DNA of 39,431 bases, taken from a bacterium. Its GTDB lineage: Bacteria; Actinomycetota; Acidimicrobiia; Acidimicrobiales; CATQHL01. Position numbers and translations under genes: made by a program. This document shows positions 31,469-37,001 of this stretch, in pieces. How positions within the stretch are numbered: position 1 is the stretch's first letter; the number at the start of each line of letters is the position of its first letter. The notes under the pieces are model-generated. The model did not search any database and was not told where the DNA came from. It saw only the letters and a program-made list of their open reading frames with translations. Where the stretch lies: the NCBI GenBank assembly GCA_026708055.1, contig JAPOVS010000036.1:1-39431 (forward strand), in the 5' to 3' direction.

Positions 31469-31507
31469 GCCCACAGTGTGTCCAGGGGGTGTGACAGCGA
31501 GCGGCGG

Positions 31508-31532
31508 CTAGCTGTGACAACCGGGGAGGTTG
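31508..31532 (+). repeat. Solitary IS481-type terminal repeat next to the IS110 element
   Basis: CTAG-CTGTGACAACCGGGGAGGTTG matches 24 of 25 bases of the left end, with its CTAG flank, of the IS481-family element at 34839-34863. Homology stops abruptly after GGTTG, where the IS110 right end begins (about 31533). No IS481 gene adjoins it, so it is a cut-off end. Confidence 0.75.
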
Positions 31533-31547
31533 ATGCTCCTATGTTTG

Positions 31548-32762
31548 TCAAGTCGTTTGTTGGCTGAGCCAGTTCTGGTAGTGGTTGGCGAGGTCGCGGT
31601 TGTGGTGGAGGCCTCGTTCGAGTTCTGAGACGCGGCTGGGGTTGGCGCCGATGGCGGCGGCGGTGGTGTGGATGGTGAGTCCGGCTTGTTGACGCCGGTG
31701 GCGTAGGCCCGCTCCCCGGGGAACGGCGGGCGGGTTGGTGAGCAGTTGGTGGATCTCCCGTGCGATGTGGCGTTTGAGGCAGCGGATGATCTCGCGGTGG
31801 GTCTTGCCCTCGGCGCGACGGCGTTCCGCGTAGTCGATGCTTCGCTGCTCGCAGCGCAGCCGAACCATGGCAATGCGCCACAGGGCGTTGTTGGCTTGGC
31901 GGTTGCCTCCTCGGTTGAGGCGGTGTCGCACCGTTTGGCCCGAGGACGCCTCAATGGGGCTCGCTCCGCGCAGCGCGGCGAAGGACGCCTCGCTGCGCAT
32001 CCGGTCGGGGTTGTCGCCCGCCGCGACCAGCAGCGCCGCGGCGGTGTCGGCGCCGACGCCGGGAGCGGCCAGCAGCGCGGGGTTGGCTCGCTCGCACAGG
32101 CGGAGCAGATCGACGTCGAGAGCGTCGATCTCGGCGGTGAGCGCCTGGTGGCGACGGGCCAAGGCCCGCAGCGCCGTCTCGGCGGCGCCGGTCACCGCGT
32201 CCGGGGCCGATCCGGGCCGCAGACGAGCGCAGGCATTGAGGAGGTCGCCGCCGCGCAGCCCGCTGAGGTGCTCTTTCATCCGGTCGGGGGCGGTGACGAC
32301 GATGCCGTGGATCTGATCGGCGGCCTGGGTGCGAGCCTTGATCGCGGAACGGCGAGCAGCCGCCAGCATCCTGATCGCCTCGACGGGCCCGTCGCCTGAC
32401 TTGGGCTGTGTGGCGGCTTCGCCGCTCAGCACCGCCCGCGCCGCCGCCTCGGCGTCGACGGCGTCGCTCTTGCCCCGGCGCCGCCGGTTCTGGCGGTTGG
32501 GGCGGTTCACCTCCACCACGAGCATGCCGCCTGCGGCGAGGCGGCGGGCGAGCCCGGCGCCGTAGGAGCCGGCGCCTTCCACGCCGACGGCCGCGACCGG
32601 GCCGTGCGACTCCATCCACACAAGCAGCTCCTCGCAGCCGGCGGCGTCCGCGCTGAACGAGGCTGCGCCCACCGCCCCGCCGACAGCGCCCACCGCGCAC
32701 GCCACGCGGACGTCTTTGCGGGCGCTGGCCCCGACGACGATTCCGGGTTGGTTCCCTGACAT
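31548..32762 (-). CDS. IS110-family transposase with C-terminal helix-turn-helix
   Basis: A 404-residue recombinase. The N-terminal DEDD domain shows Glu in 'V-G-V-E-G-A-G-S-Y' and two Asp in 'G-K-S-D-A-V-D-A-E-A-A-A-R'. The first Asp, normally in 'G-I-D-x-x-K', is missing: the protein reads 'V-V-G-A-S-A-R-K-D'. The Tnp20 domain is present ('A-P-G-V-G-A-D-T-A-A-A-L-L-V', 'A-S-F-A-A-L-R-G-A-S-P-I-E-A-S-S-G'), followed by 'R-G-G-N-R-Q-A-N-N-A-L-W'. The last 55 residues form an XRE-like helix-turn-helix (L-R-H-R-R-Q-Q-A-G-L-T to S-R-V-S-E-L-E-R-G-L). ATG 32762 with GAGGAGG upstream is preferred to TTG 32792. IS110 enzymes work with a bridge RNA. The missing Asp suggests reduced or lost activity. 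Confidence 0.9.
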   Translation of the reverse strand: MSGNQPGIVVGASARKDVRVACAVGAVGGAVGAASFSADAAGCEELLVWMESHGPVAAVGVEGAGSYGAGLARRLAAGGMLVVEVNRPNRQNRRRRGKSDAVDAEAAARAVLSGEAATQPKSGDGPVEAIRMLAAARRSAIKARTQAADQIHGIVVTAPDRMKEHLSGLRGGDLLNACARLRPGSAPDAVTGAAETALRALARRHQALTAEIDALDVDLLRLCERANPALLAAPGVGADTAAALLVAAGDNPDRMRSEASFAALRGASPIEASSGQTVRHRLNRGGNRQANNALWRIAMVRLRCEQRSIDYAERRRAEGKTHREIIRCLKRHIAREIHQLLTNPPAVPRGAGLRHRRQQAGLTIHTTAAAIGANPSRVSELERGLHHNRDLANHYQNWLSQQTT

Positions 32763-32983
32763 AATCGTGCTGCCCTCCTCGGAGCCGTCCAACGACAGCG
32801 GGCACCACCGGCGGGGGCGGCGGACAGGACACTCACGGCGTTCAGCTCAAGGCCCCTATCAGGTCACGTCCGCCCCTGCTGGCAGTGCTCGTCCCCGGCC
32901 AGCAGCAGGCCGACAAATCAACGTGAAGGCACAAGGCCGGTCCCTGGGTGAGTCAGACCCGCCCCAGCCGGGAACACCTCCAG
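32763..32983 (-). ncRNA. IS110 leader, candidate bridge (seeker) RNA region
   Basis: The 220-base untranslated leader before the IS110 transposase lies where IS110-group elements encode their structured bridge RNA. A hairpin CGGCC-TGCTGCT-GGCCG lies at about 32896-32912. The blocks CTGGGGCGGGTCTGACTC (32950-32967, minus strand) and the 24-base block at 32909-32932 recur in the fragment inside the IS481 gene. The call rests on position, hairpin and conservation. RNA boundaries and the two guide loops are not determined. Confidence 0.5.
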
Positions 32984-33108
32984 TGTGAGTGCCCCTGGGC
33001 GGTGGTGTGTCGCTCGGTGGGGGGGCCGTTGGGTGTCACCGGACGGTGTAGTGGACCTTCTAGGGCAGCAAGGTCCGGGCTGCCCGCTCGGCAGGGGTGC
33101 TGTTGGTG
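32984..33108. other. Gap between IS110 leader and RCC1-like gene
   Basis: This 125-base stretch holds no gene. GC-rich imperfect inverted repeats around 33067-33100 (GGTCCGGGCTGCCC-GCTCGGCAGGGG) could be the transcription end of the RCC1-like gene. Confidence 0.35.
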
Positions 33109-34530
33109 TTATCGGTCGGCGTAGTGGACGCCGTCGGGGGGCCAGGTGAACGGCCCCCAGCAGGCGATGGTGCCGTCGGCGCGCAGGGCGCAGGTGTGTT
33201 CGTCGCCGGCGGTGACGGCGGTGAAGTGCCCGTGCGGCACGGTCGGGTGGTAGTCCTCGAGGTCGCCCCAGCATTCGATAGTGCCGTGGGTGCGCAGCCC
33301 GCACGTGTGGCTCTCGCCGGCGCTGACGGCGGCGAATTGCCCGCCGGGCGTATCGGCCTGTCCGATGTAGACCACGCTGCGTGTGTAGTCGTCTTCGACG
33401 AAGTTGTTGTTGCCCCAGCAGGTGATGGTGGCGTCGGTGCGCAGCGCGCAGGTGTGGACCCAGCCGGCGCTGACGGCGGTGTAGGCGCCGGGGGGGCTGG
33501 TGGCTCGGCCGTAGGAGTTCTCGCCCCAGCAGGCGACGGCGCCGTCGGCGCGGACCGCGCAAGTGTGCCATTTGTTGGCGCTGACGGCGCTGTAGCGCCC
33601 GCTGGGGTTCGGCGCTTGGCCGTGGGAGTTGTGGCCCCAGCAGGTGAGGGTGTTGTCGGCGCGGATCGCGCAGGTGTGGCGGTTGCCGGCGTTCACGGCG
33701 CGGAAGCGCCCCGCGGGCGCCGCGGTGCGGCCGTCGTCGTCGTTGCCCCAGCAGGCGAGGGTGCCGCCGCTGCGGATCGCGCAGGTGTGCTCGTCGCCGG
33801 CGCTGACGGCGATGAAGGCGCCCGGTGGCGGGTCGGCCTGGCCGTCGTCGCTGTTGCCCCAGCAGGCGAGGGTGCCGTCGGCGCGCAGCGCGCAGGCGTG
33901 CTCGTCGCCGGCGCTGACGGCGGTGTAGGGACCGCGGGCGTCCCCGCCGGCCGGGGCGACCGCGAGGAGCAGCGGGGAACTCGCCAGCCAACGCCCTGCT
34001 GCGGTCGTGGCGGGCAAGAAGCGCCCGTCGGGCAGCCAGCGGCCGCCCCACGCGCCGTCGGGGCGCCGCTGCTGCACGCCGACCTCGACGCGCCCGTCGT
34101 CGAGCCTGCGCGCCGCGATCCGCACATCGCCCGCCGGTGTCACAAGCGGGGAACTCGCCAGCCAACGCCCGACGGCGGCGGTGGCGGGCAACGAGCGCCC
34201 GTCGGGCAGCCGGCGATCGCCCCAGGCGCCGCTGGGGCGCCGCTGCTGCATGCCGACCTCGACGCGCCCGTCGTTGAGCCTGCGGGCCGCGACCCGCACC
34301 TCGATGGCACCACCGGCGGTTTCCTCAGCGGCGGTGAGCGCATCGATGGCACCACCGGTGGATTCCTCAGCGGCGGCGGGCGCGGCGACCAGCGCCCCCC
34401 CCCCGGCGGCCGCCAACCCGACAGCGAGCACGGCCGCGGCCCGGCTGCGGCGCCAAAGACTCAACACTCCGCGGGTGCGTCGGCAGATCCCGAGACGCGC
34501 GACCACCCCGCCGGTTCGGAGAACGCTCAT
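33109..34530 (-). CDS. Secreted RCC1-like beta-propeller protein
   Basis: A 473-residue protein with a positively charged start and hydrophobic segment (residues 31-54, ending A-P-A-A-A-E-E), a likely Sec signal. Two copies of a ~58-residue unit follow (about 76-134 and 136-194: 'R-x-A-A-R-R-L-x-D-G-R-V-E-V-G-x-Q-Q-R-R-P' to 'G-R-W-L-A-S-S-P-L'). Then come seven ~37-residue RCC1-like units, each 'A-V-S-A-G-x-x-H-T-C-A-L-R-x-D-G-T-x-x-C-W-G', enough for a seven-bladed propeller with a conserved Cys pair per blade. Blade 5 has a 12-residue insertion. Such proteins are probably surface binding modules. ATG 34530 has a strong purine-rich site (GGGAGGGTGAGG). Partner and ligand are unknown. Confidence 0.88.
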   Translation of the reverse strand: MSVLRTGGVVARLGICRRTRGVLSLWRRSRAAAVLAVGLAAAGGGALVAAPAAAEESTGGAIDALTAAEETAGGAIEVRVAARRLNDGRVEVGMQQRRPSGAWGDRRLPDGRSLPATAAVGRWLASSPLVTPAGDVRIAARRLDDGRVEVGVQQRRPDGAWGGRWLPDGRFLPATTAAGRWLASSPLLLAVAPAGGDARGPYTAVSAGDEHACALRADGTLACWGNSDDGQADPPPGAFIAVSAGDEHTCAIRSGGTLACWGNDDDGRTAAPAGRFRAVNAGNRHTCAIRADNTLTCWGHNSHGQAPNPSGRYSAVSANKWHTCAVRADGAVACWGENSYGRATSPPGAYTAVSAGWVHTCALRTDATITCWGNNNFVEDDYTRSVVYIGQADTPGGQFAAVSAGESHTCGLRTHGTIECWGDLEDYHPTVPHGHFTAVTAGDEHTCALRADGTIACWGPFTWPPDGVHYADR

Positions 34531-34838
34531 ACCTCACCCTCCCGGCACAACCCGCACGACTGCGCCACGACGCGAACCCCGAACACTACAACGCGCGGGC
34601 CCATCGGGGGCTGGAGATCCTAAACAGCGAACCTGACGGCGGGGCTCGTGCTGTTGCTGCGACCGGCGCGTTCGCCGAGGCGGTAAACCCCCTCGCTCAC
34701 CCGTGCGGAGCGGGCAGAACCGGGCGATCCGTGGTCTCGGACAGAGCCGCGTCCTCCCTCGACGCCCCTCCCGCGCCAAGACGCGCCTGAACTTGGTATG
34801 TGAGAGGGCAGCGCGCCTCGGCAGTGCGCTCGTAGCTG
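34531..34838. other. Intergenic region upstream of the RCC1-like gene
   Basis: This 308-base stretch holds no supported gene; the open frames here are arginine-rich shadows. It must contain the RCC1-like gene's promoter on the minus strand, but no confident -35/-10 pair was seen. The right end is the CTAG flank of the IS481-family element. Confidence 0.45.
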
Positions 34839-34958
34839 CTAGGTGTGACAACCGGGGAGGTTGTCCCTGGGTTGAGGGGATCGGGGGGTCCCCGTTGGGG
34901 TGAGCCCTCCCGGCGATGCTGTGGGTCTGAAACAGTCCACGGCTCCCAAGGAGGGCTC

Positions 34959-35979
34959 ATGGCACAGATTAGACAGCACGCCAACGCGCGGCTCACGGTT
35001 CGCCAGCGCCGGGAGATGGTCTCGGCGATGCTCGATGAGGGTTGGCCGGTCGCGGCGGCCGCGGAGCGGTTCCAGGTCAGCGCCAAGACGGCGCGCAAGT
35101 GGCGCGACCGCTACGTCGCCGAGGGCCCCGGGGGCCTGGCGGATCGCTCCAGCCGGCCTCGCTCCTCGCCGACGCGCACACCCCCGGAGGTGCGCGCCAG
35201 GGTGGCCGAACTGCGCGCCCAGCGCCGCCGCGGCGCCGCCTGGATCGCCCACAAGACCGGCCTGGCGCCCTCGACGGTGCAGAACATCCTCAACGAGGCG
35301 GGCCTGGGGCGCCTCGACCGGGGCGACCGCGCCACCGCGAAGGCGCAGCGCTATGTGCGCGAAACCCCTGGTGAGCTGATCCACGTGGACGTCAAGAAGC
35401 TGCCGGGCATCCCCCCCGGCGGCGGCTGGCGGCACCACGGACGAGGCAACGCCCCCACGCCCGGCGCCAAAGCCGGCTACCGCTACCTCCACAGCGCCCT
35501 CGACGACCACAGCCGCCTCGTGTACAGCGAGATCCACGACGACGAGCGCGCCCAGACCGCCGCGGACTTCTGGCGGCGCGCCGAGCGCTGGTTCAACACT
35601 TGGGGCATCGCCTGCGAACGCGTCCTGACCGACACTCATACTGGTTGGGTGCCTGTCGGTCTGGGGCGGGCCTGACTCGCTGACTGACTGGCTTCGTGCC
35701 TTGCCGTTGATCTGTCGGCTCGTGCCGGGCCGGCGGGCGCGCACCAAGGTCAAGAAGACCCGCCCCTACCGGCCCCAGACCAACGGCAAGATCGAACGCT
35801 TCCACCGCACCCTCCTCCAGGAATGGGCCTACATCCGCCCCTGGCGAAGCGAAACCCAACGCGCCGACGCCTACCGCGGCTTCCTCCACTACTACAATTG
35901 CCACCGAACCCACGGAGCGCTCAACTGGAACACCCCAGCCTCCACCATCGGGAACAACCTCCCCGCACTACACACCTAG
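34959..35979 (+). pseudogene. IS481-family transposase, disrupted
   Basis: The N-terminal part (34959-35675) has two helix-turn-helix regions ('W-P-V-A-A-A-A-E-R-F-Q-V-S-A-K-T-A-R-K-W') and the DDE core start ('L-I-H-V-D-V-K-K-L-P-G-I'). It stays intact as far as 'C-E-R-V-L-T-D' and then reads into foreign sequence, ending 'T-H-T-G-W-V-P-V-G-L-G-R-A'. The core resumes in another frame at about 35742 ('K-V-K-K-T-R-P-Y-R-P-Q-T-N-G-K-I-E-R-F-H'), including the catalytic Glu, and runs to 35979. The usual 'N-G-S-x-Y-R-S' to 'G-I' segment (about 18-20 residues) is missing. The gene cannot make a full protein. Confidence 0.88.
35635..35738 (+). mobile_element. IS110-leader-like fragment inside the IS481 transposase gene
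   Basis: Starting at ACTGG (35640), this stretch aligns with the minus-strand leader of the IS110 element: CTGGGGCGGG(C/T)CTGACTC at 35661-35678, and GTGCCTT(GC/CA)CGTTGAT(C/T)TGTCGGC at 35696-35719, in the same order and with similar spacing. After that block a hairpin is retained with different bases (CGGC-TCGT-GCCG here, CGGCC-TGCTGCT-GGCCG there). No transposase part is present. Confidence 0.7.
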
Positions 35980-37001
35980 GCGGGCGTCACCGCTTGGGCG
36001 GCCAACGCGGCGAACGGCCCTTCGCAGCTGCTGAGGGGCGAACCCCAGGAAGGTTCCGGCTGGGACAGGTGGTCGCGGCGGACGCTTTCGAGCACAGGGT
36101 TCGGCGTTTCCCAGAGCATGTCCCAGAATCCGGACAAGTCCCGGAACGGCAGATTCTCGTTCATTTCCTCCGGCAGCGCGGCGTAGTCGCCCAGCCGGCG
36201 CGCCAGCGCCGCGGAGACGGCGAGCAGGCGGGCGTGGGGCGCCACGGTGCCGGTGATGATTTCCTGGCGCGGCAATCCGGAGGCGCCCAGGAACCACACG
36301 CCGCCGGGACGGTCGCGGGCGGCGTGTACGGCCGCGGTGAACTCCTCACTGTGCTCGCCGGCGTTGCCGGTGCGCATCGCTTCCTCGAATAGCCAGAGCA
36401 CCTCGGTGTCGGTGCGGGCACGCCACCGGTCGTCGGCCAGCATCTGCCAACCAGATCCCAGGGGGCTGTGCAGGAGACCGGGCAGCGCGCCGCATACACC
36501 AGCGGCGCGATCCACCACGAGGTCGCGGTCGGCGAGCAGGCGGACCGGGCCGAGGGCGGCCCAGTAGATCCGCGAGTCGGCGACGAAGCAGGCGGCGACG
36601 CCGTGGCCTGGCGGCGGTGGGGGAGAGGACCAGGAGGCGTGTCGGCGGCGGTGCAGTTCCGCCAAGCGCTCCGAGGCGTCGCACAGCAAGCCGGCCAGGT
36701 TCTCCCGATGCCCCTGCGCCAGATCCTCGAGCGCGGCGGCGATCTGTTCGGGCCATTCGCCGACCGCCCACAGAGAGCCCGTCTCGGCCGGCGGCGGGTC
36801 CTGGTGGAGGCGGGCCCAGACGGGAGCCGCCGGGGGGATCGGCACGCCGTCGATGAGCCACCCCGTGGCGCCACGGTGGCCGTGCAGCGCAGTTCGGCGA
36901 CCCTCCTCGGCGATTACGCCCGGCTGCGCGGCACCGCGGTAGGGGATTGCCCACTCCGTTACCGGCGGCGAGTCGCGGAGGCGGCGGTCGCCGTCTCTCA
37001 C
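35976..37001 (-). CDS. PP2C-like fold protein, probably degenerate
   Basis: A 341-residue protein starting at GTG 37001. The pattern fits actinobacterial PP2C-like proteins: 'T-G-W-L-I-D-G-V' (Asp51 in the first acidic position), a helical region (81-120), 'V-A-A-C-F-V-A-D-S-R-I-Y-W-A-A-L-G' (136-151), 'L-A-D-R-D', and 'A-A-R-D-R-P-G-G-V-W-F-L-G-A' (227-240), the usual R-N-R-P-G-G-Y-W-V segment. Where relatives have 'L-S-D-G-A' it reads 'A-V-S-A-A-L-A-R-R-L' (261-270), so a key acidic residue is gone. Catalysis is doubtful; a regulatory pseudo-phosphatase is possible. GTGA overlaps the upstream gene's stop. Its own stop codon lies in the CTAG next to the IS481 end. The family call is from memory of motifs. 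Confidence 0.55.
   Translation of the reverse strand: MRDGDRRLRDSPPVTEWAIPYRGAAQPGVIAEEGRRTALHGHRGATGWLIDGVPIPPAAPVWARLHQDPPPAETGSLWAVGEWPEQIAAALEDLAQGHRENLAGLLCDASERLAELHRRRHASWSSPPPPPGHGVAACFVADSRIYWAALGPVRLLADRDLVVDRAAGVCGALPGLLHSPLGSGWQMLADDRWRARTDTEVLWLFEEAMRTGNAGEHSEEFTAAVHAARDRPGGVWFLGASGLPRQEIITGTVAPHARLLAVSAALARRLGDYAALPEEMNENLPFRDLSGFWDMLWETPNPVLESVRRDHLSQPEPSWGSPLSSCEGPFAALAAQAVTPA

Follow-up and report, generated by a model that had tools for sequence, protein, structure and literature searches.

An IS110 leader remnant with a predicted target-binding loop in an IS481 transposase gene of an Acidimicrobiales genome

We found that an IS481-family transposase gene is interrupted by about 110 nt of IS110 sequence in contig JAPOVS010000036.1 (GCA_026708055.1), the 39,431 nucleotides of which we refer to as the window. 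This insert, hereafter the scar, lies at 35633-35744 (+ strand, in sense orientation relative to the IS481 gene) and, judging from its sequence, is the first ~110 nt of an IS110 5' leader, comprising the left end, the 5' stem and the target-binding loop (TBL). It is a remnant and not a mobile mini-element. It is highly probable that a complete IS110 element was guided to the LTD|NG codons of the IS481 gene and that a deletion then extended into IS481, leaving the scar as the 5' remnant.

The scar and the interrupted IS481 element

The interrupted element (34839-35979, +) carries the leucine zipper/HTH and rve core of the IS481 family (Pfam LZ_Tnp_IS481, HTH and rve_3) and has terminal inverted repeats at 34839-34867 and 35951-35979, found by inverted-repeat search. 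The 5' part of its transposase gene runs to L-T-D (34959-35634, +; from the ORF list, Pfam and alignment to an intact copy), and the 3' part, which includes KVKKTRPYRPQTNGK, continues to the right end of the element (35746-35979, +; Pfam rve_3). The reading frame stops within the scar at 35675, so the gene is interrupted. At the corresponding place an intact copy in the same genome (G000:C4; 97% identical) has LTDNGPCYRSRAWHRACRRTGAKPKKTRPY, whereas the window has LTD, the insert and then KKTRPY. The 3' part of the window gene is 96.5% identical to this copy; the IS481 around the scar is a separate copy, 3-4% different from it. The insert was absent from the intact copy and from the relatives L216 and L217. 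IS481 resumes at KKTRPY after the scar, and the intact copy has ~19-21 more codons between, a number which, like the exact breakpoint, is uncertain because the codons next to the 3' junction read TKV in the window and AKP in the intact copy. This agrees with the initial annotation, which had counted some 18-20 missing IS481 codons and concluded that the insertion was not a clean one. The first base of the scar (35633) is the target C, common to both elements, and the 3' junction can be placed anywhere in 35739-35745.

The initial annotation had described an insert of about 100 bases after L-T-D resembling an IS110 leader, and the presence of an IS110 leader fragment in the IS481 gene is confirmed. 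The scar is identical at 84 of 109 positions (77%) to the leader of the complete IS110 element in the window (32880-32991, minus strand) and 80-82% identical to the leaders L037 and L058. Its alignment scores to leaders were 45-57, against a maximum of 7 for shuffled sequences (200 shuffles each), so the similarity tested well above chance. A profile HMM of 8 related leaders, from which the scar was left out, matched it (about 35633-35746; E=1.6e-16) from the left end over positions 1-111 of 176, the full IS110 5' leader being ~177 nt long. A covariance model of 17 leaders, again with the scar excluded, matched at 75.4 bits (E=4e-19); this match spanned positions 1-178 but was not read as full length, since the profile ends at 111-112. 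These models were our own, built because Rfam at gathering thresholds gave no bridge-RNA match in the window and returned only a tRNA.

Alignment with complete elements showed that the 5' edge of the scar is the exact IS110 left end, which reads CACTCATACTGG in the scar, CACTCACACTGG in the window IS110 and CATTCATACTGT in the second genomic copy. Searching the whole genome with the covariance model gave three matches only: the scar itself and the leader in each of two related IS110 elements. The best other match to the scar in the assembly had at most ~73% identity over the scar length, and the scar is single-copy.

The remainder of an IS110 element is missing. No donor-binding loop was found in the scar, where the profile match stops short; in relatives this loop carries a copy of the right end (ATAGGAGC) and is complementary to the left end (GTGAGTGT). 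The right end CATAGGAGCATC is absent, with no TAGGAG/AGGAGCAT sequence in 35746-36100. Only 110 nt separate the IS481 halves and they encode no DEDD recombinase, while a protein search of the genome found IS110 only at C36:31551-32792 and on C84. In the IS621 bridge RNA the target half is the first 104 nt and the donor half the last 73 nt (PMC11208160), and the similarity of the scar ends at position 111, near the boundary between these halves. At the deletion junction (35739-35745, +) lies the heptamer GCGCACC, which alignments also place in related IS110 leaders and in IS481. In a leader elsewhere (L136 1481-1631), an internal deletion beginning at the same conserved GCGCA has removed the linker together with most of the donor guide.

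Predicted bridge-RNA structure, guides and insertion site

The two conserved blocks noted in the initial annotation hold the two arms of one covarying TBL stem. The 5' arm GGGGCGGGCCTGAC (35663-35676, +) is the core of the first block and the 3' arm GTCGGCTCGTGCC (35714-35726, +) overlaps the end of the second. Across 25 leaders, scar included, 96.5% of the cells in this stem pair and 27 are double-change cells, vs 10.4 in shuffles; shifting the partner by 1-3 columns destroyed the pairing. A single long hairpin is predicted for the scar (-65 kcal/mol, z=-4.8), and the earlier remark that a hairpin is kept although its bases differ therefore holds. Leaders L037, L058, L011 and L133 also fold as a long hairpin (z -3 to -6), and the window IS110 leader has this fold as well, but its z is weaker (-0.8). 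Variable stretches sit in internal loops of the TBL stem, as they do in the IS621 bridge RNA (PMC11208160, PMC11208158). We conclude that the scar keeps the 5' stem and the TBL of a predicted bridge RNA. A consensus 'helix' from RNAalifold between the left end and the RDG (columns 2-8 with 184-190) is donor-guide complementarity and was dropped from the model. No promoter-like site was found for the scar.

In complete relatives, the left flank of the insertion recurs in the ~9 nt ahead of a small stem-loop, the left target guide (LTG), and the right flank recurs as its reverse complement ahead of GATCTGTC, in the right target guide (RTG). For 14 leaders with mapped left ends the LTG matched its own flank at a mean of 7.3/9 vs 3.9/9 for swapped pairs (0 of 200,000 permutations reached 7.3/9), the table of guides and flanks being read by hand with up to 3 registers allowed, equally for own and swapped pairs. 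The corresponding permutation test for the RTG gave p=5e-6 (n=9 elements).

The guides of the scar match the place where it sits. Its LTG CTGACTGAC (35680-35688, +) agrees at 8/9 positions with CTGACCGAC (35625-35633, +), the single difference being a G-U wobble, and a match this good occurs at 7.7e-5 of window positions. The left target CTGACCGAC comprises the codons for LTD, its last C being shared with the IS110 left end, and the intact copy continues AACGG. The RTG CCGTT (35704-35708, +) is the reverse complement of AACGG (5/5), this right half of the site being read from the intact IS481 copy in the same genome. The insertion site is therefore CTGACCGAC|AACGG, in sequence form CTGACCGACAACGG, within the LTD|NG codons of the IS481 transposase, which we take to be the conserved motif with the catalytic aspartate of DDE transposases. 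As its guides match both its own flank and the site in the intact copy, the scar still bears the address of its own place. The initial annotation had overlooked this match; it had suggested a guide-RNA-bearing end, of which the target half of the guide is kept and the donor half is gone.

The complete IS110 element in the window (31532-32991, -), with mapped ends, was used for comparison. It consists of a recombinase (31548-32792, -; Pfam DEDD_Tnp_IS110 and Transposase_20), a bridge-RNA leader (32815-32991, -; covariance model 152.6 bits) and a right end (31532-31543, -; end mapping), and its named relatives are partly Acidimicrobiia metagenome assemblies, which points to a host that is probably of this class. 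It is housed in the end of another IS481 copy (31504-31532, +; a 93% repeat of 34835-34863). Its LTG CCCAGGGAC agrees at 9/9 positions with the sub-terminal left end of IS481, CCCAGGGAC|AACCTCCCC (34856-34880), which 6 IS481 copies in the genome carry. With the scar at LTD|NG and this element in an IS481 end, members of a single IS481 family have been struck at two different sites, by two IS110 relatives whose guides differ. Adjoining the IS481 end is an uninterrupted GGGTGTGACAGCGA (31487-31500), which resembles the site of a large group of related IS110 elements (left flank GGGTGTGAC, and right flank AGCGA in L180). A gene for a 473-aa protein with seven RCC1-like repeats (33109-34530, -; DNA period 111) lies between this IS110 and the interrupted IS481.

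Related elements, their targets and other leader pieces

Related leaders were present in 91 of 397 genomes of the order. The relatives described here were picked for similarity and mappable ends rather than by a designed survey, and the expected share of transposase genes lay outside the comparison. After rejoining the flanks, L043 proved to lie inside an IS110 gene (IIRCLK|RYIA) and L058 (just under the Pfam cut-off) and L097 inside ISL3 genes. L128 is inside an IS3 gene (GDSYD|NALAES), with domain matches running across the junction, and L053 is inside an IS5-type gene (VATRYD|KLA), while L037 and L038 lie at the 3' ends of an IS3 and a TnpB gene, respectively. In addition to L128, 7 other elements have their left end immediately next to the IS3 motif GDSYD. 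One candidate, L044, was not counted as its refined left end falls beyond the IS6-type gene concerned. Taken together, the flanking sequences suggest that this IS110 clade may be repeatedly aimed at conserved multi-copy transposase codons or at transposase ends. In the open-licence literature the described examples of IS110 targets are terminal repeats, REPs and attC sites, although an earlier report of aim at transposase codons may be missed. We also observed that L128, L151, L153, L122, L127, L129, L206 and L057 form an IS110 lineage in IS3-family genes at the catalytic GDSYD|NALAE, with the RTG GCGTT, complementary to AACGC.

The left end, 5' stem and TBL guides matching the flanks are shared by the scar with IS621 (PMC11208160, PMC11208158) and ISEc21 (PMC11187229). 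The relatives of the scar also have the donor loop, DEDD recombinase and right end in the order seen in these IS110-family elements, whereas the scar lacks all three. Its target is a set of transposase codons with a presumed catalytic motif, in contrast to the REP element targeted by IS621. The target lies inside transposase coding sequence; in IS1111-group elements there is a non-coding region downstream of the gene. Guided elements are known to land in other mobile elements, and the intact IS110 of the window, in its IS481 end, does likewise. L011, L034 and the remnant L003 are at REP-like palindromes (CCGGAATGAC), matched by the guides where guides are present, and in this they resemble the insertion sequences described in REP sequences (Tobes and Pareja 2006, PMC1525189); the scar, unlike these, is in a gene and not in a REP.

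Leader pieces without a recombinase were also found away from contig ends (L003, L133, L192, L197, L032, L189/L190, L191 and L199); those at contig ends (L187, L188, L149, L031 and L202) were set aside as assembly limits. L003 (1490-1542; G000:C14), in the window's own genome, is a 53-nt left-end remnant (positions 1-53) which ends at the left guide, this guide repeating the REP sequence. L133 (1501-1621) is a remnant of the left end and TBL (positions 1-118), the 3' side of which joins an ISL3 transposase gene. The left flank of L197 encodes PYRPQANGKV, a likeness in motif only, with no Pfam match. The 3' ends of the recombinase-less pieces are scattered between 53 and 147, a spread more in keeping with random decay than with a defined unit. 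As our models detect the target half more readily than the donor half, we draw nothing from the scarcity of donor-half pieces. L189 (1515-1712) and L190 (G107:C27:10346-10531) carry the same ~185-bp leader segment without a transposase (89% identity), in two families and with different flanks, but both segments have their 3' end at the same point, shortly after the donor guide; L190 directly follows the right end of another IS110. At first sight they resemble a mini-element running from left end to right end, but the shared 3' end falls inside the leader and each is single-copy in its own genome.

Origin and meaning of the scar

According to the history which we favour, a complete IS110 element, guided by the TBL of its bridge RNA, would have inserted at the LTD|NG codons. 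A later deletion would have started at the base of the TBL hairpin, near GCGCACC, and removed the donor loop, the recombinase gene, the right end and the following IS481 codons, leaving both elements dead. The occurrence of GCGCACC in both leaders and IS481 suggests that this deletion may have used microhomology. We infer the order of the two events. The deleted part is also something that we infer, since no complete ancestor with the exact guides of the scar was found in the 397 genomes. One of the two readings offered in the initial annotation, a remnant with its transposase deleted, fits the left end and leader that are left. The other, a non-autonomous IS110 derivative, finds no support; the leader end, the bridge-RNA structure and the unclean event named in that annotation stand.

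That other reading, in which a mini-IS110 moved into IS481 as a ~110-bp unit, is very unlikely because the right end is missing. The scar is short, starts at a true left end and lies at the target of its guide, and leader pieces without a transposase exist in other genomes, but a MITE-like derivative would have both ends and more than one copy, and here the donor loop is also gone, the scar occurs once in its genome and IS481 codons were lost at the 3' side, where complete relatives have clean target junctions. There is a small probability that an abortive one-ended insertion joined the left end and adjoining leader to the target and that repair of the break cost the IS481 codons in the same step. 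The exact left and ragged right junctions, and the similar shape of L133, would agree with this; however, known IS110 recombination uses a complete circular donor, with one-ended products not described (PMC11208160, PMC11208158), and a simple later deletion accounts for the identical sequence. It is extremely improbable that the scar reflects chance similarity or an assembly chimera. The G+C content is high and the genome is a draft (87 contigs, 96% complete) with many IS481 pieces, but the similarity far exceeds that of shuffled sequences, as the profile E value also shows, the surrounding IS481 is not the C4 sequence, and with no closer match elsewhere the assembly holds no source for a chimera.

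We regard it as unlikely, with only a slim chance, that the scar acts in trans as a free half guide. It would then be transcribed within the IS481 message, and its TBL hairpin, bound by the resident IS110 recombinase and combined with the donor loop of the resident IS110, would steer new insertions to other IS481 genes. IS621 recombined in vitro when TBL and DBL were supplied as separate molecules (PMC11208158), the hairpin and guides of the scar are intact, two IS110 leaders with donor loops are present in the genome, and other TBL-only pieces exist (L133, L192 and L197). Against this, the scar shows no promoter-like site, the natural promoter requires the right-end junction (PMC11208160), which is lost here, the genome has no second insertion made with the guides of the scar, and the varied 3' ends of similar pieces look like decay. 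If the idea were true, a dead insertion would keep aiming IS110 recombinases at the catalytic codons of further IS481 copies, and the TBL-only pieces of other genomes would count as further examples.

On the history of guided insertion and later deletion, the scar would record an RNA-guided insertion for which one genome shows the guide, the site and an uninterrupted version of the site. Transposase targets such as this one are abundant and harmless to the cell, and being hit disables competing elements.
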